NCBI RefSeq assembly: GCF_001418565.1
Contig: NZ_LIQQ01000066.1
Coordinates: 1 to 40,044, forward strand
Direction: 5' to 3'
Source: Streptomyces graminilatus
GTDB lineage: Bacteria > Actinomycetota > Actinomycetes > Streptomycetales > Streptomycetaceae
DNA: 40,044 nucleotides
Positions 2,472-38,968 of this stretch are shown piece by piece. The notes beneath the pieces were generated by a model, which saw only the letters and a program-made list of their open reading frames with translations, was not told the origin of the DNA and did not search any database. Within the stretch, counting starts at the first letter, position 1, and each line of letters begins with the position of its first letter. Both the position numbers and the translations under genes were made by a program.

Positions 2472-3224
2472 ATGGAAATGAAGAGTGTGACCAGGTCTTT
2501 GCGCGTCCTGGAGGCGGTCGCCCAGCATCAGCCGGTCACCGTCGGGGAGTTGACGAAGCTTTTCGGCCTGCCGAAGTCGACGGTGCAGCGCACCCTGGTC
2601 ACCCTGGCCGAGGCGGGCTGGCTGCGCGCGAACCGCAAAGACACCACGCGTTGGGAGATCGGTGCCCGGGTTCTGGCCGTACGACCCGCCGCCCTACAGG
2701 GCTCCAGCCTGTTCGCCGCCGCCCGCGAACCCATGATCCGGCTTCGCGACACGGTCAACGAGACCATTCACCTCTCGGTGCCCGACGCACTGCAGTGCAT
2801 GGTCGTCGTCGACCGCGTCGACTGCGACCACCCGGTACGCACCTTCCACAACATCGGCGACACCTCCCCACTGCACGCCACCGCCGTGGGGCGCGCGATC
2901 CTTGCCCGGCTTCCGAAGGCAGACGTCGAGGAGCTCATCACCCAGGGCCTGGAGCGCTTCAGCGACACGACCCCCGCCGACCCCGACGAACTGCGCGCCG
3001 AGCTGGACCGGATCCGCACCGACGGGTACGCGGTCAACCGGAACCAGTACCGACCGGGCGTCTGTGCCCTCGCCGCGCCCGTGCTCGACGAGAACGGCAC
3101 CCCGCTGGCCGCCGTGGGGGTCTCGATGCCCGACTCCCGATACGACGTGGACCGGGAGTCCGAGTGGGGCGGCCTCGTCGTCGACGCGGCACAGGAGATC
3201 AGCGGACGCCTACTGGGCGGCTAA
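2472..3224 (+). CDS. IclR-family transcriptional regulator, copy A
   Basis: This 250-residue protein has an N-terminal winged helix (about residues 1-70, with GELTKLFGLPKSTVQRTL as the recognition region) and a C-terminal IclR effector domain, the normal size for the family. ATG 2472 follows a purine-rich GGGGGAAA element. The downstream gene is a close paralogue at a constant 1006-bp offset, so promoter and gene were duplicated together. The divergent neighbour is the oxidase/deacylase pair, the likely target. The effector is unknown, though most IclR regulators sense small acids or amino-acid catabolites. The two copies differ mostly in the C-terminal third, the ligand-binding side. Confidence 0.93.
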   Translation: MEMKSVTRSLRVLEAVAQHQPVTVGELTKLFGLPKSTVQRTLVTLAEAGWLRANRKDTTRWEIGARVLAVRPAALQGSSLFAAAREPMIRLRDTVNETIHLSVPDALQCMVVVDRVDCDHPVRTFHNIGDTSPLHATAVGRAILARLPKADVEELITQGLERFSDTTPADPDELRAELDRIRTDGYAVNRNQYRPGVCALAAPVLDENGTPLAAVGVSMPDSRYDVDRESEWGGLVVDAAQEISGRLLGG

Positions 3225-3477: not shown

Positions 3478-4227
3478 ATGGAAATGAAGAGCGTCACCAG
3501 GTCACTGCGCATCCTGGAGGCGGTCGCCCGGCATCAGCCCGTGACCCTGGGGGAGCTGACGAAGCTCTTCGGCCTGCCGAAGTCGACGGTGCAGCGCACC
3601 CTGGTCACCCTCAACGAGGCCGGCTGGCTCCGGGCCAACCGCAGGGACACCACGCGCTGGGAGATCGGTGCCCGGGTTCTGGCCGTACGACCCGCCGCCC
3701 TACAGGGCTCCAGCCTGTTCGCCGCCGCCCGCGAACCCATGATCCGGCTCCGGGACACGGTCAACGAGACCATTCATCTCTCGGTGCCCGACGCACTGCA
3801 GTGCATGGTCGTCGTCGACCGCGTCGACTGCGACCACGCCGTACGCACCTTCCACGCCATCGGCGACACCTCGCCTCTGCACGCCACGGCCGCCGGGCAC
3901 GCGATCCTCGCGCATCTCCCGAATCCCGAGGTCGAGGAGTTCGCGACGGGCACATTCGAGGGGTACGGCGAGGAGACCATCACCGACCCCGAGGAACTGC
4001 GTACGGAACTCCAGCGGGTCCGGGATCGTGGCTACGCCGTCAACCACAACCAGTACTTGCAGGGGGTCTGCGCCATCGCGGCGCCCGTCCTGGACGGTGA
4101 GGGCACTCCGCTGGCCGCCGTGGCCGTCTCCCTGCCCGGCTCCCGCTTCGAGCCCGGCCGATTGCCCGAACTGGGGCGGCTGGTCGCCGAGACGGCGGCG
4201 GAGATCACCGCCCGGCACCTGGCCTGA
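3478..4227 (+). CDS. IclR-family transcriptional regulator, copy B
   Basis: This 249-residue paralogue of the preceding gene has the same winged-helix and IclR effector domains. Residues 1-145 are almost identical to copy A, and the last 100 diverge strongly. The ATG follows a GGGGG stretch at the same offset as in copy A. Its stop is convergent with the cupin gene, 117 bp away. The very similar DNA-binding domains predict that both proteins read the same operator, while the diverged ligand domains suggest different signals. The stretch 3658-3837 is nearly identical at DNA level to 2652-2831, silent sites included. Confidence 0.93.
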   Translation: MEMKSVTRSLRILEAVARHQPVTLGELTKLFGLPKSTVQRTLVTLNEAGWLRANRRDTTRWEIGARVLAVRPAALQGSSLFAAAREPMIRLRDTVNETIHLSVPDALQCMVVVDRVDCDHAVRTFHAIGDTSPLHATAAGHAILAHLPNPEVEEFATGTFEGYGEETITDPEELRTELQRVRDRGYAVNHNQYLQGVCAIAAPVLDGEGTPLAAVAVSLPGSRFEPGRLPELGRLVAETAAEITARHLA

Positions 4228-13511: not shown

Positions 13512-15101
13512 CTACGGGCAAGTGAGGCGGAACCCCGTGAAGTCGGCGGTGAACGACGCGTCGACGAGGTCCACGGCGTGGATGCCGGCCATCGACCCGG
13601 TGAACCGCAGCCTGGAGCCGTGGTCGTCGGACAGTTGGGTGAAGTCCAGCGCCGGCCCGACCGGTGTCCGCTCGCCTTCGTGGACGTACCAGAACCGCGC
13701 CCGCCCCTCCTCGACGGTCACTCCCAGGGTCAGCGGCGCGCTCGCGTCCACCTCCACCATGGCCGCTTCCCGGGTGCCGGACTCCTCCCGCTCCACGAGC
13801 CGGAGAACTGTACGGCCGCCGCCGGCCCACTGCTGCCCGTGCTGCCCCTCGCCCGCGGGCTCGGCCCAGGTGAGGTCCAGGCTCAGATACGCCTGCGAGT
13901 CGTACCGCAGGACCAGCCCGGCGGCCTGCGTGAAGGTGCGCGGACGGGCCTGGACGGTGACCTCGGCCTCCGCGCGGTGCTCGGTGATCCGCCGGGCGAG
14001 CAGACTGTGCGCCCACCGCGACTCGGGGCCGTGCCGGCCGTGCAGCCGGATCCAGCCCGGCCGGGTGGTGGTGTCGGCCCAGCTCGCATCGGGGTATCCG
14101 CGCAGGGTGCTCCAGGGCCAGCCCAGCGCGTCGTCCGGCGCGCCGAGCCGGGGCTCGGGTGCGAGGGCCGGCGTCGCCACCTCCACCTCGACCGCGGGAT
14201 GCGTACCCCCGTGGCGCAGCCTCGGCCACCCCTGCGCGTCCCATGTCACGGCCTGGACGGCCGTCTCGCGCCCGAGTGTGCAGCGCGGCCCGTCCGGCGT
14301 ACGCAGCGGCCGGGCCGCGAGGTGACTCAACACCCAATCCCCGTCCGGCATTTGGGCCAACTCGCCGTGGCCTGCCTTCTGCAACGGCAGCGACGGGTCG
14401 TCGCGCGACGTCAGCAAGGGGCGGTCGTCGAGTTCGTACGGCCCGGTGAGGGCACGGCTGCGCGCCATGCGCACCCCGTGCTCGAACCCCGTGCCGCCCT
14501 CCGCCAGGACCAGGTGGTACCAGCCGTCCCGGCGCACCAACTTCGGCCCCTCGATGAGCCGTTCGTGCTGGAGCAGCAGATGCGTGCCGCCGGTCGGGCT
14601 CAGCGTCTGCCGGTCCAGCTCCGTCAGCACGATCCCGGCGAACCGCCGGCCGCCGGGACGGTGGTCGTTCTGGAGGTTGAGCAGCCACAGCCGCCCTTCG
14701 TCATGGACGAGCGCGGGGTCGAAGCCGTGGCTCGGCAGCCTGCGCGGCGGCGCCCACTTGCCGCCGATCTCCGCGGCCGTGGTGACGTAGGTGTCCGTGT
14801 CGAAGTACGGCGTGCCCACCGAGCGCACCACCGAGTAGACCATCCAGAACCGCTCACCGTCCCAGCTCAGCGACGGCGCCCAGATGCCGCCGGAGTCGGG
14901 GACCCCGGCCAGGGAGTCGCCGGGGACAGCGCCTTGGACATGGCCGGCGTACTCCCAGTGGGCCAGGTCCCGGGAGCGGTGGATGGGGATCGTCGGGAAC
15001 CACTCGAACGAACTCGTCGCCACGTAGTACCAGTCGCCGGCCCGCACCAGGGAGGGGTCCGGGGCGAAACCGCGGATGACGGGGTTGTGCAGCAAGGTCA
15101 C
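13512..15101 (-). CDS. Glycoside hydrolase family 43 enzyme (beta-xylosidase/alpha-arabinofuranosidase type)
   Basis: This 529-residue protein starts at a GTG after GGGAG. The N-terminal five-bladed propeller (1-310) carries the GH43 residues: Asp15 in GFAPDPS as general base, Asp128 in GFDPALV, and Glu184 in EGPKLV as general acid. The C-terminal 200 residues form the beta-sandwich (GH43_C2/DUF1349-like) seen in XynB-type xylosidases. There is no signal peptide, so it probably trims imported oligosaccharides in the cytoplasm. It is the last gene of the ABC operon, 22 bp after the MalG-type permease. Xylose or arabinose side groups are likely substrates. Confidence 0.88.
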   Translation of the reverse strand: MTLLHNPVIRGFAPDPSLVRAGDWYYVATSSFEWFPTIPIHRSRDLAHWEYAGHVQGAVPGDSLAGVPDSGGIWAPSLSWDGERFWMVYSVVRSVGTPYFDTDTYVTTAAEIGGKWAPPRRLPSHGFDPALVHDEGRLWLLNLQNDHRPGGRRFAGIVLTELDRQTLSPTGGTHLLLQHERLIEGPKLVRRDGWYHLVLAEGGTGFEHGVRMARSRALTGPYELDDRPLLTSRDDPSLPLQKAGHGELAQMPDGDWVLSHLAARPLRTPDGPRCTLGRETAVQAVTWDAQGWPRLRHGGTHPAVEVEVATPALAPEPRLGAPDDALGWPWSTLRGYPDASWADTTTRPGWIRLHGRHGPESRWAHSLLARRITEHRAEAEVTVQARPRTFTQAAGLVLRYDSQAYLSLDLTWAEPAGEGQHGQQWAGGGRTVLRLVEREESGTREAAMVEVDASAPLTLGVTVEEGRARFWYVHEGERTPVGPALDFTQLSDDHGSRLRFTGSMAGIHAVDLVDASFTADFTGFRLTCP

Positions 15102-15123
15102 GTGAGGGCTCCCGGGGCGGCGG

Positions 15124-16044
15124 TCACTTCAGGGCCCCCAGCGTCACGCCGGTCCGCCAGAAGCGCCGCATCGCGACCATCATGATCGCCATCGGCACGA
15201 TGGACAGCAGCGCGCCCGTCAGGACGAGACTGGTCACGTCGACGCCCGACTCCAGGCGTTTGCCGGTCCAGTTGTACAGGCCCAGATTGAGGGTCCAGTT
15301 CTCCTCGCCGCGCAGCACGGTCAGCGGGAGGAAGAAGGCGTTCCAGGTGTTGACGAAGGCGAGCAGGAACACCGTGGCGCCGCCCGTGGTCATCATCCGC
15401 AGCACGATGCTGAAGAAGATCCGCACCTCGCCGGCGCCGTCGATCCGCGCCGCCTCCAGCAGCTCGAAGGGGATCGTGGCCTCCGTGTACACCTTGGCCA
15501 GATACACACTGAACGGGTTGATCAGGCAGGGGATCAGCATCGCCCAGGGCGTGTCGACCAGCCCGATCGCCGAGAACAGCAGATACAGCGGCAGGGTGAG
15601 CAGCGCGATCGGGATCAGGAACGACCCCACCACGCACGCGAAGACGACACCCCGGCCGGGAAAGTCGAACCGGGCGAGCCCGTACCCCGTCGCCAGCGCG
15701 ATCAGCGTGCCGCCGAGGGAACCGACACCGGCGTACAGGAACGAGTTGGCGGTCCAGCGCAGGAAGATGCCGTCCTCGTAGGTGAACACCTGCTGGAGGT
15801 TGTCCCACAGATGCCAGCCGGAGAACCACAGCCCGTTGCTCTGGTACATCCCCACCCGGTCCTTGGTGGCGGCGATCATCAGCCAGTACACCGGGAACAG
15901 GCTGTAGGCGCTCGCCAGAACCAGCCCGACCAGCACGAACCGCTGCCCGCCGCGGGAGCGGGCCACCGGATCCGGGCGGCCGATCCGCCGCACGCCGGTC
16001 ACGGTCTGCGGCGCCTTCTCCTTGCGATGCTCGGTCAGCGCCAT
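15124..16044 (-). CDS. Carbohydrate ABC transporter permease, MalG type
   Basis: This 306-residue protein has about six membrane segments and the cytoplasmic EAA loop ELLEAARIDGAGEVRIFFSI, which docks with the ATPase. Its start overlaps the MalF-type permease stop by one base. No ATP-binding subunit is encoded here, as is usual for Streptomyces sugar transporters, which share the MsiK ATPase. It probably imports oligosaccharides released by the secreted enzymes of the divergent arm. Confidence 0.92.
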   Translation of the reverse strand: MALTEHRKEKAPQTVTGVRRIGRPDPVARSRGGQRFVLVGLVLASAYSLFPVYWLMIAATKDRVGMYQSNGLWFSGWHLWDNLQQVFTYEDGIFLRWTANSFLYAGVGSLGGTLIALATGYGLARFDFPGRGVVFACVVGSFLIPIALLTLPLYLLFSAIGLVDTPWAMLIPCLINPFSVYLAKVYTEATIPFELLEAARIDGAGEVRIFFSIVLRMMTTGGATVFLLAFVNTWNAFFLPLTVLRGEENWTLNLGLYNWTGKRLESGVDVTSLVLTGALLSIVPMAIMMVAMRRFWRTGVTLGALK

Positions 16045-16928
16045 CAGTTGGCCTCCCTTGAGGTCAGCCGATAGAAGAGGAAGGACGCCACCCCGAGGAT
16101 CAGGGCGAGCAGCACCGAAAGAGTCGCGGCGTAGTGGTAGTTGCCGGCGTTGAACGCCTGGTTGTAGATGATCATGATCGGGGTGAAGCTGTCGCTGACG
16201 GTCTGCGGTGTCACGTTCCTGAACAGCGCCGGTTCATTGAAGATCTGGAGCATCTGGATGATCGACAGCAGGGCGGTCAGGACGAGCGCCCCGCGCACGA
16301 ACGGGATCTTGATGCTCAGCGCGATCCGAGACTCGGAGGCACCGTCCAGCCGCGCGGCCTCGAACAGCTCGCGCGGCACGCCCTGGAGCGCCGCGTAGAT
16401 GATCACCATGTTGTAGCCGATGCCGTGCCAGGTCAGCAGATTGCCGATGGCCGGCCACACCATGGAGGGCGAGAAGAAGTTCCAGTCGAGTCCGAACAGT
16501 CCGGCGAGCGGCGTGAGCGGTCCCACCTCGGGGCTGTACAGATTGATCCACACGATCGCGGCGACGACACCGGGGATCATGTACGGCACCAGCAGCAGAA
16601 TCCGGAACCGTCCGGCCGCCCTGGCGCCGACCGCGTCCAGGAACAGCGCCAGGGCCAGGCTGACGACCAGCATGAACGGGATCTGCACACAGGCGAACAG
16701 CACCACCCGCAGGACGGAGCCGATGAACGCCGAGTCGGTGAGACCGTCGCGGTAGTTGTCCAGGCCCGCGAACTCGGTGGTCGAGCCGCCGAGGCCCAGC
16801 CCGGACTGCTTCTGGAGAAACAGCGACTGGTAGACCGCGTAGCCGATCGGGAGCAGGTACAGGAAGGCGAAGCCGAGCTGGAAGGGCACCGTGAAGGCGG
16901 CACCCTTCCAGCGCTGGGAGCGAATCAT
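16044..16928 (-). CDS. Carbohydrate ABC transporter permease, MalF type
   Basis: This 294-residue integral membrane protein has its first helix near residues 12-32 and the EAA loop ELFEAARLDGASESRIALSI near residue 190. It forms the heterodimeric channel with the following MalG-type permease. It lies 10 bp after the binding-protein gene in the same operon. Confidence 0.92.
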   Translation of the reverse strand: MIRSQRWKGAAFTVPFQLGFAFLYLLPIGYAVYQSLFLQKQSGLGLGGSTTEFAGLDNYRDGLTDSAFIGSVLRVVLFACVQIPFMLVVSLALALFLDAVGARAAGRFRILLLVPYMIPGVVAAIVWINLYSPEVGPLTPLAGLFGLDWNFFSPSMVWPAIGNLLTWHGIGYNMVIIYAALQGVPRELFEAARLDGASESRIALSIKIPFVRGALVLTALLSIIQMLQIFNEPALFRNVTPQTVSDSFTPIMIIYNQAFNAGNYHYAATLSVLLALILGVASFLFYRLTSREAN

Positions 16929-16938
16929 CGAGTCCGCC

Positions 16939-18282
16939 TCAGCCCTTGACGCTGATGCCGCGCTGCTTCAGGTCGTCGACCGTCCACTTCTGCATGTGCG
17001 CCAGCAGATCGGTGACCTTCTGCTGCTTGCTGACGACCTTCGCCCACTCGTCCTGCAACTGCGTGAACATCGCCGTCCAGTTCGGCCCGAAGGTCCAGTC
17101 GGTGGTGACGGTGTCCAGGCTGTCCGTCACGACCTTCTTCGCGGGCTCGTAGTTCTTCCCGAGCAGCTTCTCGGAGATCGCCTCCGACACATACGCGTCG
17201 CTGTCGGCCAGCGCCGGCATCACACCGCTGCCGGTCTCCGGGCTCGCCATGGTCTTCACGGCCCCGGCGTCGGTCGACATCCACAGCGCGGCCTCGGCGG
17301 CCTGCTCCTTGGCCTCGCAGTCCTCGGTCACCAGCGTCAGATTGCCGCTCTGGTTGGTCCCGGCCGGTGTCCTGGCCGCCTCCCCCTGGAACGCCGGCCA
17401 GGGCGACAGCGCCCACTTGCCGAAGGACTTGGTGAAGTTCTGCACCATGCCGGACATCTGCCAGGTGGAGATCTGCCGGGTCGCGGTGCCGCCGTTGTCG
17501 TAGTTGCGCTGCACGGCCGCGTAGTCCGCGAAGGAGAGCTTGGAGTTGAGGTCGTTGTCGACGATCTCCTGGATCACCTTCGCGGCCTTGAGCGTGCCCT
17601 CGTCCTGGAAGTTCACCACCCATGAGTCGCCGTCGATGGCGTACCAGTGCGCCCCGGCCTGCATCGCCAGCACCTCAAGCGTGCTGGGGTCCTCACCGGC
17701 GTAGTTGGTGATCTTGACGCCGTGCTTCTTCAGCTCCTTGCCGGCGGTGATGAAGTCGTCCCAGGTCGCCGGTGCCTTGAGTCCGTACTTCTGGAAGAGG
17801 TCGGTGCGGTAGATGGTGAAGGCGGGCGCCGAGGCGGTCGGCACCCCGTACACCTTCCCCTGCACCTGACCGGTCGCCCACGAGCCGGCGTTGAACTTGT
17901 TCTTGTCGGCCTCGACGTACCGGGTGATGTCGGAGAGCGCACCCTGCGAGACCCAACTGGTCACGTACTCACCGGTGTTCTGGAGCAAGCAGGGCGCGTT
18001 GCCCGCCTTGACCGCGTTGGTGAGCTGCTTCTGCATGGTCAACTGGTCGGTGACCTTCGTGTACTTGAGCCGCACGTCCTTGTGCGAGGCGTTGAACGCC
18101 TCGACGACCGCCTGCTGCCCGTTGGCCCAGCCCCAGAAGTCCAGGGTGACCGGGCCGGAGCCCTTGGACCCCGAGCCGGAGTCCTGCGAGTCGTTTCCGC
18201 CGCAGGCGGCGAGCAGACCTGTCAGTGCGATTCCCGCGACGGCGGCGGAGGCGAACCTTCTCCGGGGGCTGGTGAAGTTCAT
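16939..18282 (-). CDS. Sugar-binding lipoprotein of an ABC transporter (extracellular solute-binding protein family 1)
   Basis: This 447-residue protein starts at ATG 18282 after a GAAGGA site. Residues 1-27 form a lipoprotein signal ending LLAAC, with Cys27 as the lipidated residue. A Gly/Ser-rich linker and the family 1 binding fold follow (LDFWGWANGQQAVVEAFNAS onward). It captures a mono- or oligosaccharide outside the membrane and delivers it to the two permeases downstream. The 459-bp leader holds two LacI-type operator-like sites, so sugar-relieved repression by the upstream LacI protein is expected. Confidence 0.92.
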   Translation of the reverse strand: MNFTSPRRRFASAAVAGIALTGLLAACGGNDSQDSGSGSKGSGPVTLDFWGWANGQQAVVEAFNASHKDVRLKYTKVTDQLTMQKQLTNAVKAGNAPCLLQNTGEYVTSWVSQGALSDITRYVEADKNKFNAGSWATGQVQGKVYGVPTASAPAFTIYRTDLFQKYGLKAPATWDDFITAGKELKKHGVKITNYAGEDPSTLEVLAMQAGAHWYAIDGDSWVVNFQDEGTLKAAKVIQEIVDNDLNSKLSFADYAAVQRNYDNGGTATRQISTWQMSGMVQNFTKSFGKWALSPWPAFQGEAARTPAGTNQSGNLTLVTEDCEAKEQAAEAALWMSTDAGAVKTMASPETGSGVMPALADSDAYVSEAISEKLLGKNYEPAKKVVTDSLDTVTTDWTFGPNWTAMFTQLQDEWAKVVSKQQKVTDLLAHMQKWTVDDLKQRGISVKG

Positions 18283-18413
18283 CAGACCGTGATCCTTCGG
18301 AATGGGAGAGAGCGTGCTTGCTTCGAGGCGGCTGCGACAAGGAGGCGCCGGCCGGGAACGGCGGCGGGAATCCATCGGCTCGCGGTTGCGGAGCCGGCCA
18401 AGCGGAAGCGGTA

Positions 18414-29594: not shown

Positions 29595-32468
29595 ATGGTG
29601 GACGTGCAGTTGCTCGGGCCTGTGGAGCTGTCGGTGGGGGGCCGCGTGGTGGAGGTGGGGCCGCCACAACGCCGTACGGTGATGGCCGCCCTGGCGGTGG
29701 ACGTCGGCCGGCCCGTCGCCGTCGACGTGGTCATCGAACGGGTCTGGGGCACACGTGCGCCGGACGGGGCGCGGACCGCGGTGCACGCCCATGTCGCCCG
29801 GATCCGGCGGGTGTGTGAACAGGCCGCGCAAACGGCGAGAGAGCCCTTACGTCTTGTGCGGCGCTCGGGCGGGTACTTGCTGGAAGCCCGCCCGGGCCAG
29901 GTGGACTTGTACCGGTTCCAACAACTGATCGACCAGGCACGGTTGCTGGAGCGGACCGACCCGGCGCGGGCGCGGCTGCTGGGCGACGCGCTCGGCCTGT
30001 GGCGCGGAGAACCCCTGTCCGGTCTGCAGGGGCAGTGGGCAGCGCGGATGCGCGAGGCCTGGCGGCGACAGCGCCAGGACGCCGCCGTGGGATGGGCTCG
30101 CGCGGAGCTGCGCCTCGGTGATCCCGCGTCCGTCATCGGCCCGCTGACCGGTCTGCTCGGGGAGTATCCGTTGGCGGAACCCCTGGCCGAAGCGCTGATG
30201 CGGGCGCTGCACGACACCGGGCGCAGCGCGGAGGCACTGGACTGGTACGCCGCTGTCCGCGAACGGCTGGCGGAGGAGCTGGGTACGGATCCGGGGCCGG
30301 CGCTGCGACAACTGCACCAGACGATCCTGCGGGGCCACGGGTCCACGTCCGCCGCACGGCCCACGCCCCCGCCACAGTGGCTGTCGGCGGTGGTGCGGTC
30401 GGCCGAGCCTCCCGCCCAACTGCCCATGGCCGTACGCGGATTCACCGGCCGTGACGAGGCGCTGGGCCGCCTCGCAGCGATCCTCGCCTCGGCGGAGAAC
30501 GAGTCCGCGGCGGTGGTGATCTCGGCGGTGTCGGGCATGGCGGGGGTCGGGAAGACGGCGCTGGCGATGCACTGGGCGCGCCAGGTGCGGAGCGCGTTCC
30601 CCGACGGGCAGCTGTATGTGAACCTGCGGGGGTTTGATCCGCGGGGGGCGGTGGTGCCTGCGACGGAGGCGGTACGGGGTTTTCTGAACGCCCTCGGGGT
30701 GCAGCCGGAGCGGGTGCCGCCGGGCCTGGAGGCCCAAGCGGGGCTGTACCGGAGTCTGTTGGCGGGGCGGCGGATGATCGTGGTGCTGGACAACGCCCGG
30801 GACGAGGAACAGGTCCGTCCGTTGTTGCCGGGGTCGGTCGGTTGCATGGCGCTGGTGACGAGCCGGAACCGTCTGACCGGGTTGGCGGTGACGGAGGGCG
30901 CCCATCTGCTGGCGGTGGAGTCGCTGAGTCCGGACGCGGCGCGGGACATGCTGGCGGAGCGGCTCGGGGCGGGACGGGCGGCGGCCGAGCCGGAGGCCGT
31001 GGCGGACATCGTCGCCTCGTGCGGGGGACTGCCGCTGGCGTTGGCGGTGGTGGCGGCCCGTGCGGCCATAGAGCCCCGCAGGCCGTTGGGGGCGCTGGCG
31101 GAGGAACTGAGGGAGGCGGGCGGCCGGCTGGACGCACTGGACGTGGGGGAGGAGGCCAGCCGGGTGCGGGCGGCGTTCTCGTGGTCCTACAGCGTGCTCA
31201 GCGCCGGTGCGGCCCGGATGTTCCGGCTGCTGGCCCTGCACCCGGGGCCGGACGTGGGTCACGCGGCGGCGGCCGCGCTGGCGGGGGTGCCGCCGGAACG
31301 GGCCCGGGGACTGCTGAGCGAACTGACCGGCGGGCACCTGCTGGTGGAGCAGGTACCGGGACGGTACGCGTTCCACGACCTCCTGCGGGTGTACGCCGGG
31401 GAGTTGGTGGCCGCGTGCGACGGTGAGCGGGTGCGGCGGGAGGCGTTGCACCGGATGATGGATCACTACCTGCACACCGCGAGGGCGGCCGATGTACTGG
31501 TGACTCCGCAGCCCAATCCGGTGGCCACGCCTCCGGCCGCGCCCGGTTCCAACGTGGGTGAGCCCGCCGACTACGAGCAGGCGCGGGCCTGGCTCGTCGC
31601 CGAGCACGCGGTGCTGCTGGAGATCGTGCGGCAGCCGCCGCCGGACTTCGACGGCCATGTGTGGCGGCTGGTCGCGGTGTTGACCACCTTTCTGGACCGG
31701 GACGGGTACTGGCAGGTGCTGCTGGCGGCCGGGCACACAGCGCTGGCCGCGGCCCGGCGTGAGGGTGCCCTGGCCGGTGAGGCGGCTTCCTACCGCAGTC
31801 TGGGGCTGGCGCTGGACCGGTTGAAGCGCACGGGACCGGCCCGGGAGCACTACCTGCGAGCACTGGAGCTGTTCGGCATGCTGGGCAGTGATGCGGGCCA
31901 GGCCCGTACGCATCAGCATCTCGCGCGGATGTCGGGGGCACTGGGGCGTCCCCGACAGGCGCTGGAGCACGCGCTCCGGAGCTTGGAGCACTACCGGAGG
32001 GCGGGCGACCGGGCGGGGCAGTCCGCGGCGCTGAACCACATCGGCTGGCGGCAGGCGAACCTCGGCGACCACCTCGGCGCGTTGGTCCACTGCGAGCAGG
32101 CTCTGGAGCTCGCCCGCGCCACCGGGGACGTGGACGGGCAGGCCCACATCTCGGACAGTCTGGGCTACATCCATCATCACCTGGGCCGGTATCAGGAGGC
32201 GGTCGACTGCTACCGTCAGGCGGCGCAGCTGCACCGCGCCACCGGCGAGCGCCACAGCGAGGCCGCCTGTCTGCTCTGCCTCGGCGACAGCCACCTCAGC
32301 GTCCAGCAGCCCGGCGCGGCCCGCGAGGCATGGACGCGGGCCCTGGCCCTCACCGACGAACTCGGCCTCCCCGACGACGACCCCCTGCGCGCCGGAATCC
32401 GCGACCGCCTGGGCTTCGCGGCCACCTCGGACAGTCCTTCCGACCCCGTCCCGGTCCAGCCCCAGTAG
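29595..32468 (+). CDS. AfsR-like pathway regulator (SARP domain + NB-ARC ATPase + TPR)
   Basis: This 957-residue protein has a SARP winged helix (1-95, VQLLGPVELSVGG and AVHAHVARIRR) and a BTAD domain (100-250, EPLAEALMRALHDTGRSAEAL). An NB-ARC ATPase follows, with P-loop GMAGVGKTA (Lys320) and VVLDNARDEEQV as Walker B. TPR repeats span about 690-930. Leu85 is encoded by TTA (29847-29849), so translation should depend on the bldA tRNA and be late in development. It lies directly upstream of the RiPP genes on the same strand and is probably their activator. Short leader: GAGAGGGGGCGGG precedes the ATG. Confidence 0.93.
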   Translation: MVDVQLLGPVELSVGGRVVEVGPPQRRTVMAALAVDVGRPVAVDVVIERVWGTRAPDGARTAVHAHVARIRRVCEQAAQTAREPLRLVRRSGGYLLEARPGQVDLYRFQQLIDQARLLERTDPARARLLGDALGLWRGEPLSGLQGQWAARMREAWRRQRQDAAVGWARAELRLGDPASVIGPLTGLLGEYPLAEPLAEALMRALHDTGRSAEALDWYAAVRERLAEELGTDPGPALRQLHQTILRGHGSTSAARPTPPPQWLSAVVRSAEPPAQLPMAVRGFTGRDEALGRLAAILASAENESAAVVISAVSGMAGVGKTALAMHWARQVRSAFPDGQLYVNLRGFDPRGAVVPATEAVRGFLNALGVQPERVPPGLEAQAGLYRSLLAGRRMIVVLDNARDEEQVRPLLPGSVGCMALVTSRNRLTGLAVTEGAHLLAVESLSPDAARDMLAERLGAGRAAAEPEAVADIVASCGGLPLALAVVAARAAIEPRRPLGALAEELREAGGRLDALDVGEEASRVRAAFSWSYSVLSAGAARMFRLLALHPGPDVGHAAAAALAGVPPERARGLLSELTGGHLLVEQVPGRYAFHDLLRVYAGELVAACDGERVRREALHRMMDHYLHTARAADVLVTPQPNPVATPPAAPGSNVGEPADYEQARAWLVAEHAVLLEIVRQPPPDFDGHVWRLVAVLTTFLDRDGYWQVLLAAGHTALAAARREGALAGEAASYRSLGLALDRLKRTGPAREHYLRALELFGMLGSDAGQARTHQHLARMSGALGRPRQALEHALRSLEHYRRAGDRAGQSAALNHIGWRQANLGDHLGALVHCEQALELARATGDVDGQAHISDSLGYIHHHLGRYQEAVDCYRQAAQLHRATGERHSEAACLLCLGDSHLSVQQPGAAREAWTRALALTDELGLPDDDPLRAGIRDRLGFAATSDSPSDPVPVQPQ

Positions 32469-32633
32469 GCCGGGGCACCAGGCCGGTCGTTCCAGATCTT
32501 CGGTCCGCTGAGCGGAACAGAGCTCGACAGGGCGTTCCACGCCGACCACACTTTCGGAGCGTTATGACGCACCGGCGCCCTTTTGCTCCTTTCGCGCGCC
32601 GGTTCCTTCGAGCGGTGGAGGGGAGGGAACCTC

Positions 32634-32720
32634 ATGGAGAAGACCATCGTGGAGAACGACCCGCAGATCGACGATCAGGATTCGGCCCTGATCTCGGTGT
32701 CGGTCAGCGTCAGTTTCTGA
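32634..32720 (+). CDS. RiPP precursor peptide 1 (28 aa)
   Basis: The strong GGAGGGGAGGGA site precedes ATG 32634. The peptide has the leader MEKTIVENDPQIDDQDSA and the C-terminal core LISVSVSVSF, a strict Ser/Val alternation closed by Phe. It shares the MEKT-x-V-x-NDPQ leader with the next small gene and lies upstream of a radical SAM RiPP enzyme. No GG-type cleavage site is present. The alternating pattern predicts an extended beta-strand with Val side chains on one face. It was too short for a routine ORF list but has a good ribosome-binding site, a paralogue and the right context. Confidence 0.88.
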   Translation: MEKTIVENDPQIDDQDSALISVSVSVSF

Positions 32721-32735
32721 CGCTGTCACAACGGG

Positions 32736-32758
32736 TCCCCACCGTTATTCCGTGGGGA
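32736..32758 (+). terminator. Small hairpin after precursor 1
   Basis: TCCCCAC and GTGGGGA pair across a nine-base loop and are followed by TTT. It lies 15 bases after the precursor 1 stop and may stabilise or partly terminate the precursor transcript. Confidence 0.5.
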
Positions 32759-32765
32759 TTTCAGG

Positions 32766-32806
32766 CGCTTCCGGTGCGACCGGATGCTCCGGTCGCACCG
32801 GAAGCG
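32766..32806 (+). terminator. Perfect 19-bp hairpin between the two precursor genes
   Basis: The arm CGCTTCCGGTGCGACCGGA (32766-32784) pairs perfectly with 32788-32806 over a three-base loop, extendable by two G-U pairs. No U-tract follows. Its place between the two precursors suggests an attenuator or RNA-stability element that raises precursor 1 over the enzymes. Confidence 0.7.
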
Positions 32807-32838
32807 TTCAACTTCGAGCGACCGGGGGGAGGAGTGTC

Positions 32839-32934
32839 ATGGAGAAGACCGTTGTGCGCAACGACCCGCAGATGGAAAACCGTGAGGACGTCAATTCGAT
32901 TTCGGTTTCGGTGATGGTGTACGTCACCTTCTGA
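32839..32934 (+). CDS. RiPP precursor peptide 2 (31 aa)
   Basis: ATG 32839 follows GGGGGGAGGA. The leader is MEKTVVRNDPQMENREDV and the core NSISVSVMVYVTF. It aligns with precursor 1 at the leader and at ISVSV, then replaces the Ser positions with Met, Tyr and Thr while keeping Val at every second position and Phe at the end. The constant Val ladder and variable partners suggest that the modification falls on the Val positions. It is 75 bp upstream of the radical SAM gene. Confidence 0.9.
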   Translation: MEKTVVRNDPQMENREDVNSISVSVMVYVTF

Positions 32935-33009
32935 CCAGCGCGGCCTCGCTTCCAAGTATCGCTCCGTGCTTCCGGCGCCCGGGAGACACGGGCTCACGCC
33001 GGAGGGCAT

Positions 33010-34935
33010 ATGAAGATCACGCTGGTCTGCATGCCGTGGGCCACGACAGCAACTCCGTCACTCGCGCTCGGGATTCTTTCGCGAAGGATCGCGGATACAT
33101 TTCCAGAGATCGAGACGAAGACCCTCTACGCCAACATAGAGTTCGCCGACTGGATGGACCAGCAAGGAGGACTCGGCTCCCCCGAATTCAGTTTCTTCTC
33201 CTTGCACAGCTATTTCCTGGGATGCGGCGACTGGGTGTTCTCCTCCGCCCTCTACGACGACCCTTCGTGGCGGGTGGACGAGTTCACCGCCGGGTTGAAG
33301 GGAAAGATCACGGACAATCAGATGGAGACATGTCTGCGGCTGCACCGGATCGTTCCCGACTTCATCGAAGCCACCGCGCGGCAGATAGTCGCCGACGGTC
33401 CCGATCTCGTGGGCGCGACCTCGACGTTCCAGCAGAACGTGGCGTCACTCGCGCTGTTGCGCCGGATCAAGGAGCTGGCGCCCGGCATCACGACCGTCAT
33501 GGGCGGGGCCAACTGCGACGGTCCGCAAGGGGAGGCGCTGCACCGCAACTTCGGCTTCCTCGACTACGTCGTACGCGGCGAGGCGGAGCGGGCGTTCCCC
33601 CAACTCGTCGAGGCCCTTCGTGGGGGTGGCGAGCCGGACACATCGCACATACCCGGCCTGTGCCGGCGTGACGGCGACACCAGTGTCAGCAATCCGGCGG
33701 CGGACCGGCTCCTGGCGCCGTCCGAGATCCCGGCGCCCGACTTCGACCCCTACTTCGAGCGTCTCAGGCGCTCCCGAGTGCAGTCCTGGTACGAGCCGGT
33801 GCTCGTGGTCGAGGGCGCGCGCGGCTGCTGGTGGGGCGAGAAGCACCACTGCACGTTCTGTGGACTCAACGGTTCGGCGATGACCTTCCGCAGCAAGAGC
33901 CCGCACACCTATCTGGACGAGATCCTCACGCTCGCCGAGCGCCACCGCGTGCTGGACTTCTACGCCGTGGACAACATCCTGGAGATGTCCTTCCTCGACT
34001 CCGTCCTGGACAAGCTCGCCGAGGCACCCTTCGACCTGCGCATCCAGTACGAGGTCAAGTCGAACATGAAGCTGTCGCAGATCGCCCAGATGCGTGCGGC
34101 CGGGGTGGTCAGCGTCCAGCCGGGCATCGAGAGCCTCAGCAGCCGCGTACTGAAGATCATGGACAAGGGCGTGAGCGGCACCCACAACGTCCGCTTCCTC
34201 CGGGACGCCGAGACCCACGGGCTGTCGGTGGCGTGGAACTACCTGTACGGGTTCCCGGGGGAGACCCAGGACGACTACCTGCCCCTCATCGAGCAGTTTC
34301 CGGCCCTGCACCACCTCCACCCCAGCACCGGGGCGAACAGGATCGCGCTGGAGCGTTTCAGCCCCTACTTCGACCGCCCCGAACTGGGCTTCACCGACCG
34401 GCGGCCGAACCCGCAGTACGCGATCACCTATGACCTGCCGGAGGCCGAACTGACCGACCTCGCCTACCTTTTCGAAACCCCCGCCCAGGGCATCGACCGC
34501 AAGATCGGCGAACGGCTCGCCGATGCTCTTCAGGAGTGGTCCGACAACTACATCCGCAGCAGCCTGTCCTACGTCGACCTCGGTGACCGCATCGCGCTCA
34601 CCAACTCCCGGCCGGGCTTCTCCTGGCGGTCCATGACCCTGGAAGACCCGGTCGAGGCCGAGCTGTTCCGCGCCCTGCACGACCCCAGGTCGGTCGACCA
34701 ACTGGTACGCCGCGCGGGCCAGGGCGGTCACGCCTGGGACGAGAACCGCGTCGAGGCCCTGCTGACCGACTGGCGACGACGGGGACTGATCTTCGTCGAG
34801 GGCGACCGTGCCGTCCACCTCGCCACCGAGGACGAGAACCAGTTGCTGTGCCGCATCCGGCGCGACTCGCAGACCGGCGGACCCGAGCTGGCCCTGCAAC
34901 TGGCCGAGGAGCCCACATGCGTGACGATCTGCTGA
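33010..34935 (+). CDS. B12-binding-domain radical SAM RiPP maturase (C-methyltransferase type, rSAM_ocin_1-like)
   Basis: This 641-residue enzyme starts at an ATG after GGAGG. Residues 1-210 form the cobalamin-binding-type Rossmann domain (MGGANCDGPQGEAL, YVVRGEAERAFPQLVEAL). The radical SAM domain carries Cys273, Cys281 and Cys284 (GCWWGEKHHCTFCG), a CX7CX2C spacing rather than CX3CX2C. A C-terminal extension of about 150 residues follows. This fits the RiPP maturation radical SAM protein 1 family, whose B12 relatives methylate unactivated carbons, for example Val to tert-Leu in polytheonamide- or bottromycin-type peptides. The substrate is inferred to be the two upstream precursors. It overlaps the next gene by 19 bp. 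Confidence 0.9.
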   Translation: MKITLVCMPWATTATPSLALGILSRRIADTFPEIETKTLYANIEFADWMDQQGGLGSPEFSFFSLHSYFLGCGDWVFSSALYDDPSWRVDEFTAGLKGKITDNQMETCLRLHRIVPDFIEATARQIVADGPDLVGATSTFQQNVASLALLRRIKELAPGITTVMGGANCDGPQGEALHRNFGFLDYVVRGEAERAFPQLVEALRGGGEPDTSHIPGLCRRDGDTSVSNPAADRLLAPSEIPAPDFDPYFERLRRSRVQSWYEPVLVVEGARGCWWGEKHHCTFCGLNGSAMTFRSKSPHTYLDEILTLAERHRVLDFYAVDNILEMSFLDSVLDKLAEAPFDLRIQYEVKSNMKLSQIAQMRAAGVVSVQPGIESLSSRVLKIMDKGVSGTHNVRFLRDAETHGLSVAWNYLYGFPGETQDDYLPLIEQFPALHHLHPSTGANRIALERFSPYFDRPELGFTDRRPNPQYAITYDLPEAELTDLAYLFETPAQGIDRKIGERLADALQEWSDNYIRSSLSYVDLGDRIALTNSRPGFSWRSMTLEDPVEAELFRALHDPRSVDQLVRRAGQGGHAWDENRVEALLTDWRRRGLIFVEGDRAVHLATEDENQLLCRIRRDSQTGGPELALQLAEEPTCVTIC

Positions 34936-35507
34936 CCCCACCGTCCACCACCTCGGAGGGCTCGCTCGCCAGCCGTCACGTGCACGACCTGTACGGGCGA
35001 GGAGTGCGGTACGCCGAACTCGACGAGCCCGTCAACCTGAGCTCGCCCACACCCCGTGATCTGCGCGCACTCGACTTCCTCCGGGTCGCCACCGCCCGGG
35101 GCCTGCTGGTGCGCTGGCAACTGAGAGCAGGCCGGCGGGCCGATCCGGCCCTGACGGCACGCGACCTGACGCACCTTCAGCCACCGGCCTCCCTCGACGG
35201 CGCCCGGTCGGCCGAGCGTCTCACCGAGTGGCGGAACCGGTTCTACATCGGCCGCTGTGTCTGGCGCCGAGGCCCCGGTTTCGTACAGATCCGCGACCGG
35301 CGGGCCGGCGTGCTGCAACGATTCGACCTGGTCCAGCCCGCATACGTACAAGCCGTGGCCCAACTGGAGCGACAACAGGTGGGCGACGTCGATCCCGACG
35401 TCCTCTCCGCGCTGCGCGCCGAGCACCTCGTGCTGAACTTCGGCGGCCTCGACTGGTGGGCTCCCTGCCTCATCGACCGGTGGCCCGTCCCGTCCATGGT
35501 CCTGTGA
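34917..35507 (+). CDS. DUF5825-like RiPP-cluster protein
   Basis: This 196-residue soluble protein starts at ATG 34917, after GAGGAG, inside the end of the radical SAM gene, so the two are coupled. It contains conserved-looking Trp/Arg-rich segments (RWQLRAGRRAD, WRNRFYIGRCVWRRGPGF, NFGGLDWWAPCLID) but no catalytic motif I recognise. From memory it resembles DUF5825, found beside RiPP radical SAM methyltransferases; this could not be checked. A role as partner or recognition subunit for the maturase is a reasonable guess. Confidence 0.75.
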   Translation: MRDDLLTPPSTTSEGSLASRHVHDLYGRGVRYAELDEPVNLSSPTPRDLRALDFLRVATARGLLVRWQLRAGRRADPALTARDLTHLQPPASLDGARSAERLTEWRNRFYIGRCVWRRGPGFVQIRDRRAGVLQRFDLVQPAYVQAVAQLERQQVGDVDPDVLSALRAEHLVLNFGGLDWWAPCLIDRWPVPSMVL

Positions 35508-35565
35508 CCGATGCCGCAGCCTCCCTGACCGAACCTTCCTGACCGAACCTCCCGAAGGAGCCGGC

Positions 35566-35907
35566 ATGGTCAATGACGTCGCGGCCGCGGTCCTCGCCTG
35601 TGGGGCCGTGGCCTGGCTGGTGTGGCGCGGGTTCTTCACCCCACCGGGGTCCTTCGGGTCCTGGGCGATGTTCTCCCATATCGGCGGCTACCGCGCCCGG
35701 CTGCACGACGTACGCGACGGGCAGCCCGTCTGCCCCTGGGAGTACGAACTGCGCCAGGACCACTTCGGCTCTCCTGAGGCGCTGGCCTCGCTGGTGTGCT
35801 ACCTCGACGAGGAACACGGCCTGCGCGTGGTCGGGGAGGGCGTGCTCCTGGTGCCTTTCGGCCACATCAGGATCGCGGTCAGAAACGGCAGGATCGTGCG
35901 TGCGTGA
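35566..35907 (+). CDS. Small membrane-anchored protein of the RiPP operon
   Basis: This 113-residue protein follows GAAGGAG. One N-terminal membrane helix (residues 4-20, AAAVLACGAVAWLVW) is followed by a soluble domain (GSFGSWAMFSHIGGYRARLHDV, PWEYELRQDHFG). I do not recognise the family. Its end overlaps the HTTM gene by eight bases, so the two probably work together at the membrane. Confidence 0.75.
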   Translation: MVNDVAAAVLACGAVAWLVWRGFFTPPGSFGSWAMFSHIGGYRARLHDVRDGQPVCPWEYELRQDHFGSPEALASLVCYLDEEHGLRVVGEGVLLVPFGHIRIAVRNGRIVRA

Positions 35908-36847
35908 TCTGCTGCCGACCGCGTTCCCGGTGCACGGCACGGCGGCCGGACCGGCGCTGTGCTTCTTCCGCCTGATCCTGGCGGCCGCCCTGCTGTGGAA
36001 GATCACCGCCGACCATGTCTACGGCATGGCGCGTTTCTTCGACCTTCACCCCAAGTCGTTGGTGCGATGGCGGTACGAGCGCGACGACATGGCCGTCAAG
36101 GTGTTGCTGAGCCCACTCGCGTTCAAGGTCTTCTACGCTGCCCGGGCCATGGCGGTGCTGTGCCTGCTGGCAGGAGTGCTCACCCCGCTCGCCGCAGGAG
36201 TCGTGGCCGCCTGGTGCATGTTCGAGTTCACCTTCGACCGCAAGTTCAACATCCTGTTCCTGGGCATGATGTGCGTCCCGTTCGTCTTCGCCTCCGGAGC
36301 CGATGCCTATCTCAGCCTGCAGTCGCTGCTGGACGCCCCGTCCCCGGCCGCGTTCCTCGATCCCGCGCGGGCGCCGGGGCCAGGAGGGCCCTCCTGGCCG
36401 CAGGCCGCCGCGGTCGTGCTGATGTTCCAGGTGTACTGGAGCAGCGCCTGGTTCAAGGCCGCCTCCCGCCAGTTCACCAGCGGGGACACTCTGCAGAAGA
36501 TGTTCGAGCAACTCGCCTCCCTGCGTGACGAACTGCCCCCGGGCCGGCGCGAATACTATTTCCCCGACTGGTTCACGCGCCGTTTCGCCACCGCTGACCC
36601 GTCGCTGGCCGCCCGCCGTTGGCGCCTGCCCTCACTGGCGACGATCGTCGTGGAGGCCGCGCTCCCTCTCCTGCTGATCTTCCCGGCCACCTGGCCGGCG
36701 GGCACAGTCCTGGGCCTGCTCATGCACGCCGTCTTCACCGCGCTGCTGCCCAAACGCCTCGTCCCCTTCGGACTCGCCTCGGTGGGCACCTATGTGCTCT
36801 TCCTTCCGCAGCACACGTTTGTGACCCTGATCGGAGGACTGATGTGA
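35900..36847 (+). CDS. HTTM-type polytopic membrane protein (gamma-carboxylase-like domain)
   Basis: The 315-residue frame most plausibly begins at GTG 35900, overlapping the previous gene. It has several membrane helices (CFFRLILAAALLWKITADHV, AVLCLLAGVLTPLAAGVVAAW, NILFLGMMCVPFVFA, AAAVVLMFQVYWSSAWFKAA, and more). The FFDLHPKSLVRWRY and VYWSSAWFK pattern is that of bacterial HTTM proteins, relatives of vitamin K-dependent carboxylase. Such proteins are found in RiPP and thiol-redox operons with mostly unknown roles. Here it could modify or help export the peptide. Confidence 0.8.
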   Translation: MRDLLPTAFPVHGTAAGPALCFFRLILAAALLWKITADHVYGMARFFDLHPKSLVRWRYERDDMAVKVLLSPLAFKVFYAARAMAVLCLLAGVLTPLAAGVVAAWCMFEFTFDRKFNILFLGMMCVPFVFASGADAYLSLQSLLDAPSPAAFLDPARAPGPGGPSWPQAAAVVLMFQVYWSSAWFKAASRQFTSGDTLQKMFEQLASLRDELPPGRREYYFPDWFTRRFATADPSLAARRWRLPSLATIVVEAALPLLLIFPATWPAGTVLGLLMHAVFTALLPKRLVPFGLASVGTYVLFLPQHTFVTLIGGLM

Positions 36848-37626
36848 CGGACCAAACGGTGTGGGCGCCCACCAGTTTCGGCGCCCGTGCGCACGACTAC
36901 GACCGGCTGCGCCCCGGCTACCCCCTCGAAGCCCTCACCGAGGCCCTGTCCGCCCTGGGCGTCGGCCCGCCGGGCACCGCGCTCGACATCGGATGCGGGA
37001 CCGGCAAGCTCGCGGCCGCGCTGGCGAAGCTCGGCCACGAGGTCACCGGGGTCGAGCCGGACGCGCGGATGGCTGAGGTCGCCTCGGCCAACGGGCTCGC
37101 CGTCGAGGTCGGTACCTTCGAGTCGTGGGAGCCGGGCGGCAGGCGGTTCGACGTGGTGGCGTGCGGCCAGGCCTGGCACTGGCTGCGGCCCGGGGAACGG
37201 ACCCGGAAGGCGGCGCGGTGTCTCGGCACGGCCGGCCGGATCCTGCTCGCCTGGAACTTCGGCTCTTACGCGCCGTGCGACGCGGCCCGGCTCAACGCGG
37301 TCTACGCGTCCGTCCTCCCGGACGGCCTGCCGGCCGGATCGGGCGGCCGGGTCTCACTGTCCGAGTCCGACCTCGACGGATACGCCGAGGAACTGCGATT
37401 CCACGGATTCCAGCACGTGACGAGGATCGCCGTGCCCTGGCAGACCCGTCTCACCTCCCGGCAATTCTGTGAACTGCTGGCCACCGAGAGCCGCCACCTC
37501 GCTTTGCCCGAGGAGGTGCGGCGGCGGCTGTTGGGCGAGGTGGCCGCCTTTCTCGACGCGGAGAACGGCGGCGAGATCGGCGTGGACTACCGGTGCCTGG
37601 TGGTGGGAGGGTCTGCCGCCGGGTGA
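36844..37626 (+). CDS. Class I SAM-dependent methyltransferase
   Basis: This 260-residue protein starts at GTG 36844, overlapping the HTTM stop in a GTGA junction. Motif I is DIGCGTGKLAAALA (about residues 45-58), and an acidic motif II follows at TGVEPDARM. The fold is UbiE/COQ5-like. As last gene of the RiPP operon it may N- or O-methylate the peptide, in addition to carbon methylation by the radical SAM enzyme. The substrate is not visible from sequence. Confidence 0.88.
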   Translation: MTDQTVWAPTSFGARAHDYDRLRPGYPLEALTEALSALGVGPPGTALDIGCGTGKLAAALAKLGHEVTGVEPDARMAEVASANGLAVEVGTFESWEPGGRRFDVVACGQAWHWLRPGERTRKAARCLGTAGRILLAWNFGSYAPCDAARLNAVYASVLPDGLPAGSGGRVSLSESDLDGYAEELRFHGFQHVTRIAVPWQTRLTSRQFCELLATESRHLALPEEVRRRLLGEVAAFLDAENGGEIGVDYRCLVVGGSAAG

Positions 37627-37654
37627 CATCGCCGTGCCCCGGGCCGGCCGCAGC

Positions 37655-38968
37655 TCACAGGACGGTCTGTCCGTCCGGGTCGGTGCGGGGCTCCGACTCC
37701 CTGTTGCCTTCCGGCGGTCTGCCCAACTGGCGGACGACCGGTACGACATGATTGGCGGCCGCCAGAAGGGCCAGGCCGACGGTGATGGCGATCAGGGGGG
37801 CATCGACTCCGAGACCGTCCGCCAGCGCGCCGCACACCACCGGGGCGAGCCAACCGCAGGACTGCGAGGCCATGTTCGCCGACGTCATGACACGTGCGGT
37901 GATGGCGTCCGGAACCATCGCCACCATGCCGCTGGCGAACACGACGTTCAGCGGAGTCACAAAGAAGATGCTCGCGCCCAGGCACAGGGCCGCCAGCCAT
38001 GGCCAGGCCGCAAGCAGCACGATTCCGCCGACGCCCGCGGTGACCATCCAGGAGACGATCAGGATGATCCGGTAGCCGGACATGTGTTGTACGACCCATC
38101 CGGCGGCGAGTGCGCCGCCGAGACCGCACGCCGTGGCGATCGATTCGGCCGCGCCGATCTGCGAGGGCGACGCGCCGTGGTACCGCAACGTCACGATGAA
38201 CATGAAGCCGATTCCGGTGAAGAACAGGTTCATCAGCGCCATCCACAGCAGTGCGTACCGCAGGAACGCGCTGCCCCGGATGAAGGCCAGCCCCGCGCCC
38301 AGGTCGCGGCGCAGCGGAGGGCGGTCGGCGGACCGGTCCGCGGCGTCGGGTCCCAGCGGGGTGCGCAGGAACAGGCAGGCGATGGCGACGGCCCCGAAAG
38401 AGAGGGCGTCCACGAGGAACGGTGCCCAGCGCGCCCACGAGAACAGGGCCCCGCCGAGCGGCGCTCCGGCCAACTGGGCACCGTAGTCTCGTGCCTCGAC
38501 CCGGGCGAAGGCGGTCCTGACCTGCGACTCGGGGACGACGCGTTTGACCAGGGGTGCCGCCGCGCCGGCGAACGCCGCCGACGCCAGGCCCTGCACCAAC
38601 GCCAGAACCGCGATCAGCGGCAGCCATAAGCGCCCGGCGGCCACGATCCAGAAGACGACGCCCATCGCGGCCAGTTGGACCAGTGAGGACCCGACCAGCA
38701 GAGCACGTCTCGGATAGCGGTCGGCGGCCACCCCCGCGGGCAGGAGACCGACCACCAGACCGGCACTCCCGCAGGTACCGACGACCCCGGCAGCGGTGGC
38801 GGACCCGGTGGCAGCCAGGACCAGCAACGGGAACGCCAGGGTGGAAACACTGGTGCCCAGCCTGGACACCCCCACCCCGGACCACCAGATGTTGTAGTCC
38901 CGGTTTCGCCACAGCGGGGTGGGCTCCGGCCCTTGTGGATCGGCTTTCCGTCCGTTGTTTTGGGCCAC
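37655..38968 (-). CDS. MFS efflux transporter (MFS_3/EntS-like)
   Basis: This 437-residue protein has about twelve membrane helices and the MFS loop motif GVAADRYPRRALL near residue 80. It converges with the RiPP operon, 28 bp apart. The start is GTG 38968 with no ribosome-binding site. A well-placed promoter puts transcription start on or next to the GTG, so the mRNA is probably leaderless. It is the best candidate exporter or immunity pump for the RiPP product. Confidence 0.88.
   Translation of the reverse strand: MAQNNGRKADPQGPEPTPLWRNRDYNIWWSGVGVSRLGTSVSTLAFPLLVLAATGSATAAGVVGTCGSAGLVVGLLPAGVAADRYPRRALLVGSSLVQLAAMGVVFWIVAAGRLWLPLIAVLALVQGLASAAFAGAAAPLVKRVVPESQVRTAFARVEARDYGAQLAGAPLGGALFSWARWAPFLVDALSFGAVAIACLFLRTPLGPDAADRSADRPPLRRDLGAGLAFIRGSAFLRYALLWMALMNLFFTGIGFMFIVTLRYHGASPSQIGAAESIATACGLGGALAAGWVVQHMSGYRIILIVSWMVTAGVGGIVLLAAWPWLAALCLGASIFFVTPLNVVFASGMVAMVPDAITARVMTSANMASQSCGWLAPVVCGALADGLGVDAPLIAITVGLALLAAANHVVPVVRQLGRPPEGNRESEPRTDPDGQTVL

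Follow-up and report, generated by a model that had tools for sequence, protein, structure and literature searches.

In the polytheonamide pathway, a B12-dependent radical S-adenosylmethionine (SAM) enzyme methylates valine to tert-leucine. Clavusporins, in turn, are reportedly surfactants that aid Streptomyces development, in agreement with the title of the study by Zhang, Li, Overton and Seyedsayamdost (Nat Chem Biol 2025, 10.1038/s41589-025-01882-8). According to PMC12257519, amino acids are C-methylated in clavusporin biosynthesis by a pair composed of a B12-radical SAM enzyme and a DUF5825 protein, and the prolyl oligopeptidase (POP) MpcP is involved in leader removal, according to PMC12951456. 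A homologous pair is encoded in the 40,044-nucleotide stretch of Streptomyces graminilatus analysed here and called the window (contig NZ_LIQQ01000066.1, from a genome of 9.6 Mb in 859 contigs). There it is part of an operon of the type that makes ribosomally synthesised and post-translationally modified peptides (RiPPs), without a POP gene and with additional genes for a one-transmembrane (1TM) protein, an HTTM-fold membrane protein and a methyltransferase (MT). We consider it probable that this RiPP operon belongs to a clade of its own beside the clavusporin-type operons, and that Val and Ile residues of its peptides are C-methylated by the radical SAM/DUF5825 pair, the product being finished by the 1TM/HTTM membrane pair, capped by the MT and exported by a major facilitator superfamily (MFS) protein.

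The C-methylation core and its precursors

The radical SAM gene (33010..34935, + strand) matches TIGR03975, a family of B12-dependent RiPP C-methyltransferases, with 610.6 bits (cut-off 281.85), and the B12-binding domain with 34.9 bits (cut-off 32.1); its cluster motif CWWGEKHHCTFC occupies residues 273-284. The partner gene (34917..35507, +) gives a Pfam match to DUF5825 with 179.1 bits for a cut-off of 25. Of 392 genus genomes, 91 contain DUF5825. This is the sole match in the window genome, where the second radical SAM match is just 25% identical, which argues against a second clavusporin operon. A counterpart on plasmid pSCL4 of S. clavuligerus (locus L097) contains an MFS gene, a Peptidase_S9 gene (121.2 bits), the precursor MQKDVIHNDPLAGDEENRKPSVGITITVPFRNAEDADED, a radical SAM gene and a DUF5825 gene. 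Because of this content and of the compound's name, we infer that it is the clavusporin operon itself. The radical SAM proteins of the two operons are 55% identical, the DUF5825 proteins 41% and the MFS exporters 29%.

To collect related loci, the radical SAM protein was scanned against genome contigs and the best 80 of 519 relatives were taken, then L097, a plasmid locus of Streptomyces sp. NBC_01450 (L098) and the genome locus L143 were added. L142 and L144 were left out of the counts because their radical SAM rows are identical to those of L007 (S. humi) and L003 (Streptomyces sp. NBC_01549), respectively. The resulting sample comprises 11 loci of the window's kind (the window, L003-L010, L098 and L143; L004 is from S. 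olivochromogenes) against 73 others.

Two small genes of 28 and 31 codons, noticed already in a first-pass annotation of this DNA, are present upstream of the radical SAM gene: P1 (32634..32720, +; 28 residues, MEKTIVENDPQIDDQDSALISVSVSVSF) and P2 (32839..32934, +; 31 residues, MEKTVVRNDPQMENREDVNSISVSVMVYVTF). They have a common leader and end in a ladder, ISVSVSVSF in P1 (32691..32717, +) and VSVMVYVTF in P2 (32905..32931, +), and a purine-rich, Shine-Dalgarno-like stretch lies upstream of each. Without modification, the complete peptides have [M+H]+ values of 3066.482 (P1) and 3616.744 (P2). P1 is separated by 165 bases from the regulator gene and by 118 from P2, which lies 75 bases before the radical SAM gene. 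In all 11 sister loci, the radical SAM gene has a P1-type gene ahead of it, with start, leader, frame and stop kept every time, and P2 is found in six of them (the window, L003, L004, L006, L007 and L098); these data agree with the earlier proposal of a conserved RiPP-type locus with ladder peptides as likely precursors. In L005 (7680-8000), an intact P1 is followed by only the final residues of P2 and then by the same downstream sequence, suggesting a likely deletion of P2.

Neither P1 nor P2 matches any NCBIfam or Pfam family. The leader search proposed in the annotation was carried out with a degenerate pattern, which returned five sites in 3 of the 392 genus genomes, every one at such a locus, while a reversed control pattern returned none; the pattern misses the GTG-started precursor of genome G068. 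In an alignment of 21 precursors, three leader residues (M, K and P) are invariant and D, two V columns and F are near-invariant, and the precursor of the S. clavuligerus operon type aligns with those of the window in leader and ladder. Chance small open reading frames (ORFs) are ruled out by the conservation and by the empty control, and a wholly new precursor class by the alignment with canonical operon precursors. The annotation's statement that this type of precursor is without a counterpart among characterised natural products therefore cannot be retained, since the clavusporin B12-radical SAM/DUF5825 pair is homologous and the precursors align.

The ladders follow a common register. Counted from the terminal F, Val or Ile occupies positions -3, -5, -7 and -9 in 9/9 P1 peptides and in 5/5 MRK-type peptides from Micromonospora, Actinokineospora and Saccharothrix, compared with 2 of the 56 cells in between. 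When L143 and L098, whose P1 equals that of L004, are included, the register holds in 10 of 11 P1; it also holds in five of six P2. Canonical cores with a P[FIL]R end show the same register in 56/56 cases (in-between cells 2/168), and 53 of these 56 have a Pro just ahead of the core, with no Pro around the core of the window. Overall, 76 of the 78 precursors in these counts, which include many near-identical ones, fit the register. The canonical count covers L013-L082, leaving out L025, L038, L048 and L067 (no P[FIL]R end), L070 (masked letters) and 11 loci without a listed precursor, among them the MRK-type L014, L015, L018 and L024, which were excluded deliberately. Similarly, two of the seven MRK-clade peptides stand outside the count, L015, which equals L011, and L038, which ends in VIVVIIVSS.

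Conserved Val/Ile residues with freer residues between them fit an enzyme needing beta-branched side chains, and the register points to these positions, including -3, -5, -7 and -9 of P1, as the predicted C-methylation sites. Assisted by DUF5825, the radical SAM enzyme would use the K-x-[VI]2-x-[NS]-[DN]-P leader and would methylate beta-branched side chains, in the simplest case Val to tert-Leu. Several observations speak against such a direct interpretation. The P1 of L143 breaks the register, the P2 of L007 is shifted by one, and the uncounted L038 has Val/Ile between register positions too; moreover, the same Val/Ile pattern would arise in a beta strand of which one face is buried. Furthermore, the differences among P1 genes are spread nearly evenly over codon positions (third 291, second 223, first 195), and 134 changed codons are silent against 339 that are not, so that no signal of purifying selection is seen. 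This near-neutral pattern, along with the lack of an entry for MQKDVIHNDPLAGDEENRKPSVGITITVPFRNAEDADED in the S. clavuligerus plasmid's gene table, which is incomplete, would be expected if the small ORFs were untranslated and the cluster acted on another substrate. It is very improbable that this is the case, given the start, leader, frame and stop shared by all 11 loci, the 56 canonical cores in register and the lack of any control site in 392 genomes.

Exchange of operon genes

Gene content clearly separates the two kinds of operon. All 11 loci of the window's kind have the 1TM, HTTM and MT genes, ten have an MFS gene, seven a SARP homologue within the stretch, and none an S. clavuligerus-type POP gene. 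Among the other 73 loci, 1TM and HTTM genes are absent and MT genes number four (partial matches, 29-37% identity), while 65 loci carry MFS, 8 SARP and 68 POP genes. A POP gene hidden close to the locus was also considered, and none was present in the stretches of the 11 loci, that of L006 comprising just 2.1 kb upstream of the radical SAM gene. The five other loci without POP are L023 and L043, whose contigs both start at the radical SAM gene, and L048, L067 and L068; no precursor was found in L068. The precursors of L048 and L067 are odd, with a leader MEKD-[IV]-I-x-NDPL and different cores (MRLIDIPIPAVRE and MIWINIPIGNTGD), and judging from these sequences the two may form a further branch of radical SAM/DUF5825 loci.

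In a tree of 86 radical SAM rows, all 13 rows of the window's kind are placed on one side of a single branch, with SH-aLRT support of 100 and a length of 1.63; the tree was built by a quick method with a midpoint root, and the program warns of long branches (L038 and others). The difference in gene content is best read as one event, in which the POP gene was exchanged for the 1TM, HTTM and MT genes. Since a single change on the tree accounts for all of these rows, the gene counts measure fixation and not repeated gains.

The same point, that these counts are not independent events, reduces the weight of the gene-content argument, and so does the presence of proteases elsewhere in the genomes. 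Indeed, a POP homologue occurs outside the locus in 10/10 clade genomes searched, 38-42% identical to the S. clavuligerus POP in the C-terminal half. In the window genome this S9 peptidase (G000:C545:18488-20332; 42% identity over the C-terminal half) has orthologues in 59 of 61 genus genomes, its own included, and is by homology a candidate trans-acting leader protease. The locus could then be an ordinary clavusporin operon, with the genus-wide S9 peptidase cutting the leader in trans and with 1TM, HTTM and MT as tailoring or transport extras that bring no new core chemistry. This would be consistent with the homology of the radical SAM protein, DUF5825, precursor and MFS protein to their clavusporin-type equivalents, and the N/S-D-P kept in every P1 leader offers a possible cut site for such a protease. 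We regard this explanation as unlikely, because each of the 11 loci lacks a POP gene in the operon and has the three extra genes, because the Pro found on both sides of the canonical core (53/56) has no equivalent around that of the window, and because the S9 gene is also carried by genomes without the locus.

The 1TM/HTTM membrane pair

The first half of the pair, the 1TM protein of 113 residues (35566..35907, +), is followed by the multi-pass membrane protein of HTTM fold (315 residues, 35900..36847, +, GTG start) and by a class I SAM-dependent MT identified by family matches (260 residues, 36844..37626, +, GTG start). The 1TM/HTTM and HTTM/MT gene pairs overlap, as does radical SAM/DUF5825. 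A close HTTM protein occurs in 4 of the 392 genus genomes, the window's own included. Across 394 genomes of the class, the HTTM clade was found in the window's own genome only, and a protein search found kin in Actinoplanes teichomyceticus.

The HTTM assignment made in the first-pass annotation stands in part. On the one hand, when the modelled structure was searched, the top 15 Foldseek and top 16 VIA-align matches were all vitamin-K-dependent gamma-carboxylase (GGCX). On the other hand, neither Pfam HTTM (PF05090) nor NCBIfam HTTM matched the protein or its relatives, 17 members in all, at any E up to 10, and the window's protein was not matched in a genome-wide Pfam HTTM search. The label of the 315-residue protein thus appears to rest on the predicted fold. 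A homologue in L088 matches PF05090 at E 0.029, below the cut-off; a profile of two HTTM groups gave weak matches to the ORFs of 30 Pfam-HTTM loci (best E 0.021), and the HTTM profile had 0 matches to PDB sequences up to E 1. The window protein differs from GGCX by its low identity (10-14%), its half length and a match limited to the transmembrane part, and the shared fold shows no function. No fold match at E < 0.001 was obtained for the 1TM model, and its best rows, 20S proteasome chains with E of 0.30 or more (45 columns), were taken as chance. NCBIfam presumably holds models for SdpA and SdpB; no Sdp model was among the NCBIfam matches up to E 10 for the 17 and 16 pair members, and the word HTTM is absent from the 20 SdpA/SdpB papers covered.

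In other loci, several of them on Streptomyces plasmids, genes for TfuA, YcaO and a methyltransferase adjoin a homologous 1TM/HTTM pair, with E values of 2e-9 and 1.8e-22 in profile-profile comparison. These Streptomyces loci (L137-L140, L181 and L182) resemble that of the window by their homologous 1TM and HTTM genes and a methyltransferase near short precursors. They differ from it in having TfuA and YcaO in place of the radical SAM and DUF5825 genes, a GpsA-like or P450 gene, and other precursors, with VVxAVDVEDEE-like ends in L137-L139 and L181 and VVVAEDVENDDPFVPA in L140. From their TfuA-YcaO content they may make thioamides, by analogy with what the available part of PMC6511847 describes; neither TfuA nor YcaO was detected among the nine window locus proteins scanned. 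On a Kitasatospora plasmid (L183:7682-10115), the 1TM/HTTM pair is followed by an MFS gene, with no annotated TfuA, YcaO or radical SAM gene, which is perhaps a third setting of the pair.

An HTTM protein, crdG, is also encoded in the locus of the linaridin corynaridin, with an assumed role in maturation; this locus, like other linaridin loci, lacks a leader protease, and crdG, crdE and crdL are homologous to genes with a suspected part in Thr dehydration (all from PMC9927463). In the available portion of PMC10373908, grmL of grisemycin is said to potentially encode a peptide epimerase. Since the pair adjoins TfuA-YcaO elsewhere and linaridin clusters are reported to encode an HTTM protein, the pair looks like a portable RiPP membrane module. 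This generalisation is weakened by three observations: the missing HTTM family matches, the low confidence of the HTTM model (pLDDT 58, pTM 0.55) and the methyltransferase of the TfuA loci, which is not detectably kin to the MT of the window (E 0.053).

As to function, the two proteins of the pair could form a single membrane enzyme whose substrate is the methylated peptide. Our guess is that the reaction is most likely an epimerisation, and less likely a Ser/Thr dehydration or leader release; epimerisation is favoured over dehydration because the residues between Val/Ile vary and the TfuA-locus precursors end without Ser/Thr. A more far-reaching version, which we put forward as a speculation that is unlikely to hold, is that the pair is a portable peptide-editing enzyme of gamma-carboxylase fold, common to C-methylated, thioamide-type and linaridin RiPPs. 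Here it would invert alternate residues of a tert-leucine ladder, yielding short D/L peptides of two components, methylated on one face. These would amount to a miniature polytheonamide whose synthesis needs neither proteusin leaders nor an epimerase of the radical SAM type.

Dehydration of the Ser/Thr on the polar face of the ladder, as suspected for linaridin proteins, would suit the P1 of the window, which has Ser at -2, -4, -6 and -8, and the reported homology of crdG, crdE and crdL. It appears distinctly unlikely in view of the whole clade, whose polar face is varied and includes Gly, Glu, Lys, Arg, Ile, Val, Leu, Met and Tyr, and of the TfuA-locus precursors with their VVIAVDVEDEE-like ends.

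Somewhat less doubtful, if still unlikely, is a role of the pair as a leader-removal or export device that replaces the protease and does not modify the peptide. The pair occurs where POP was lost, the linaridin loci lack a leader protease while that of corynaridin has an HTTM protein, and the best 1TM fold matches, though not significant, are proteasome chains. In disagreement with this role, 10/11 loci retain an MFS exporter close to the pair, no protease family is present among the weak family matches of the pair, and in fold the HTTM protein matches a carboxylase. In the preferred scheme, in which the pair finishes the methylated peptide, the MT would cap a peptide terminus and the MFS protein would export an amphiphilic peptide, possibly a surfactant in development by analogy with clavusporins.

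Neighbouring genes and comparison with known systems

The MFS exporter gene (37655..38968, - strand; family matches) is convergent with the operon. Upstream of P1 lies an AfsR/SARP-family regulator gene with BTAD, NB-ARC and TPR matches in NCBIfam/Pfam (29595..32468, +), with TTG at 29532 as a possible alternative start. The order of genes given in the first-pass annotation, from the radical SAM gene through DUF5825, one-TM, HTTM and methyltransferase to the convergent exporter, with an AfsR-like regulator, is borne out. A regulator homologue is found directly upstream in L003, L004, L008 and L098. Codon 85 of the regulator is TTA in the window, L003 and L004 and not in L008; of eight MFS genes examined, those of the window, L006 and L008 have a TTA codon (at 114, 307 and 15, respectively) and five have none. 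Since TTA codons are so patchy across loci, the link to bldA control is weak. Elsewhere in the window, two tandem IclR-family regulators (2472-3224 and 3478-4227) are 77.5% identical over 249 residues, and a GH43 glycosidase gene and a solute-binding protein gene (13512-18375) enclose two genes that resemble sugar ABC transporter permeases.

If the proposed scheme is correct, clavusporin-type chemistry is a platform able to lose its protease gene and gain a membrane module, and this module connects RiPP classes that otherwise share little. Since the pair is small and its gene order fixed, the action of HTTM proteins on peptides could be tested with two short substrates, for which mass gives a clear read-out. 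Moreover, the Val/Ile register provides a direct prediction of methylation sites for an enzyme family that attacks unactivated carbons.

In the literature found on DUF5825, clavusporin and HTTM with RiPP, seen partly as extracts and with subscription papers outside its scope, this variant is not described. Compared with the polytheonamide (proteusin) pathway, in which D-residues are made by the epimerase PoyD (PMC10373908), the window operon contains a single radical SAM gene, which belongs to TIGR03975. With the linaridins cypemycin, grisemycin and corynaridin, compared by the descriptions in the accessible texts only, it shares an HTTM membrane protein, the lack of a leader protease and usually a methyltransferase; characterised linaridins carry N-terminal (alpha-N) dimethylation (PMC10373908, available part), and these texts describe no B12-radical SAM enzyme or DUF5825 for them. 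From the clavusporin-type operon (mpc; L097), with which it shares the precursor leader and Val/Ile register, it differs by the absence of an in-operon POP, of a C-terminal follower after the core and of Pro flanking the core, and by the addition of the 1TM, HTTM and MT genes and, in 6/11 loci, of a second precursor. The novelty first claimed for the locus is thus lowered by the clavusporins and raised again by the cross-class membrane module: clavusporin chemistry is already known, and what is new is a clade without in-operon POP that carries this module.

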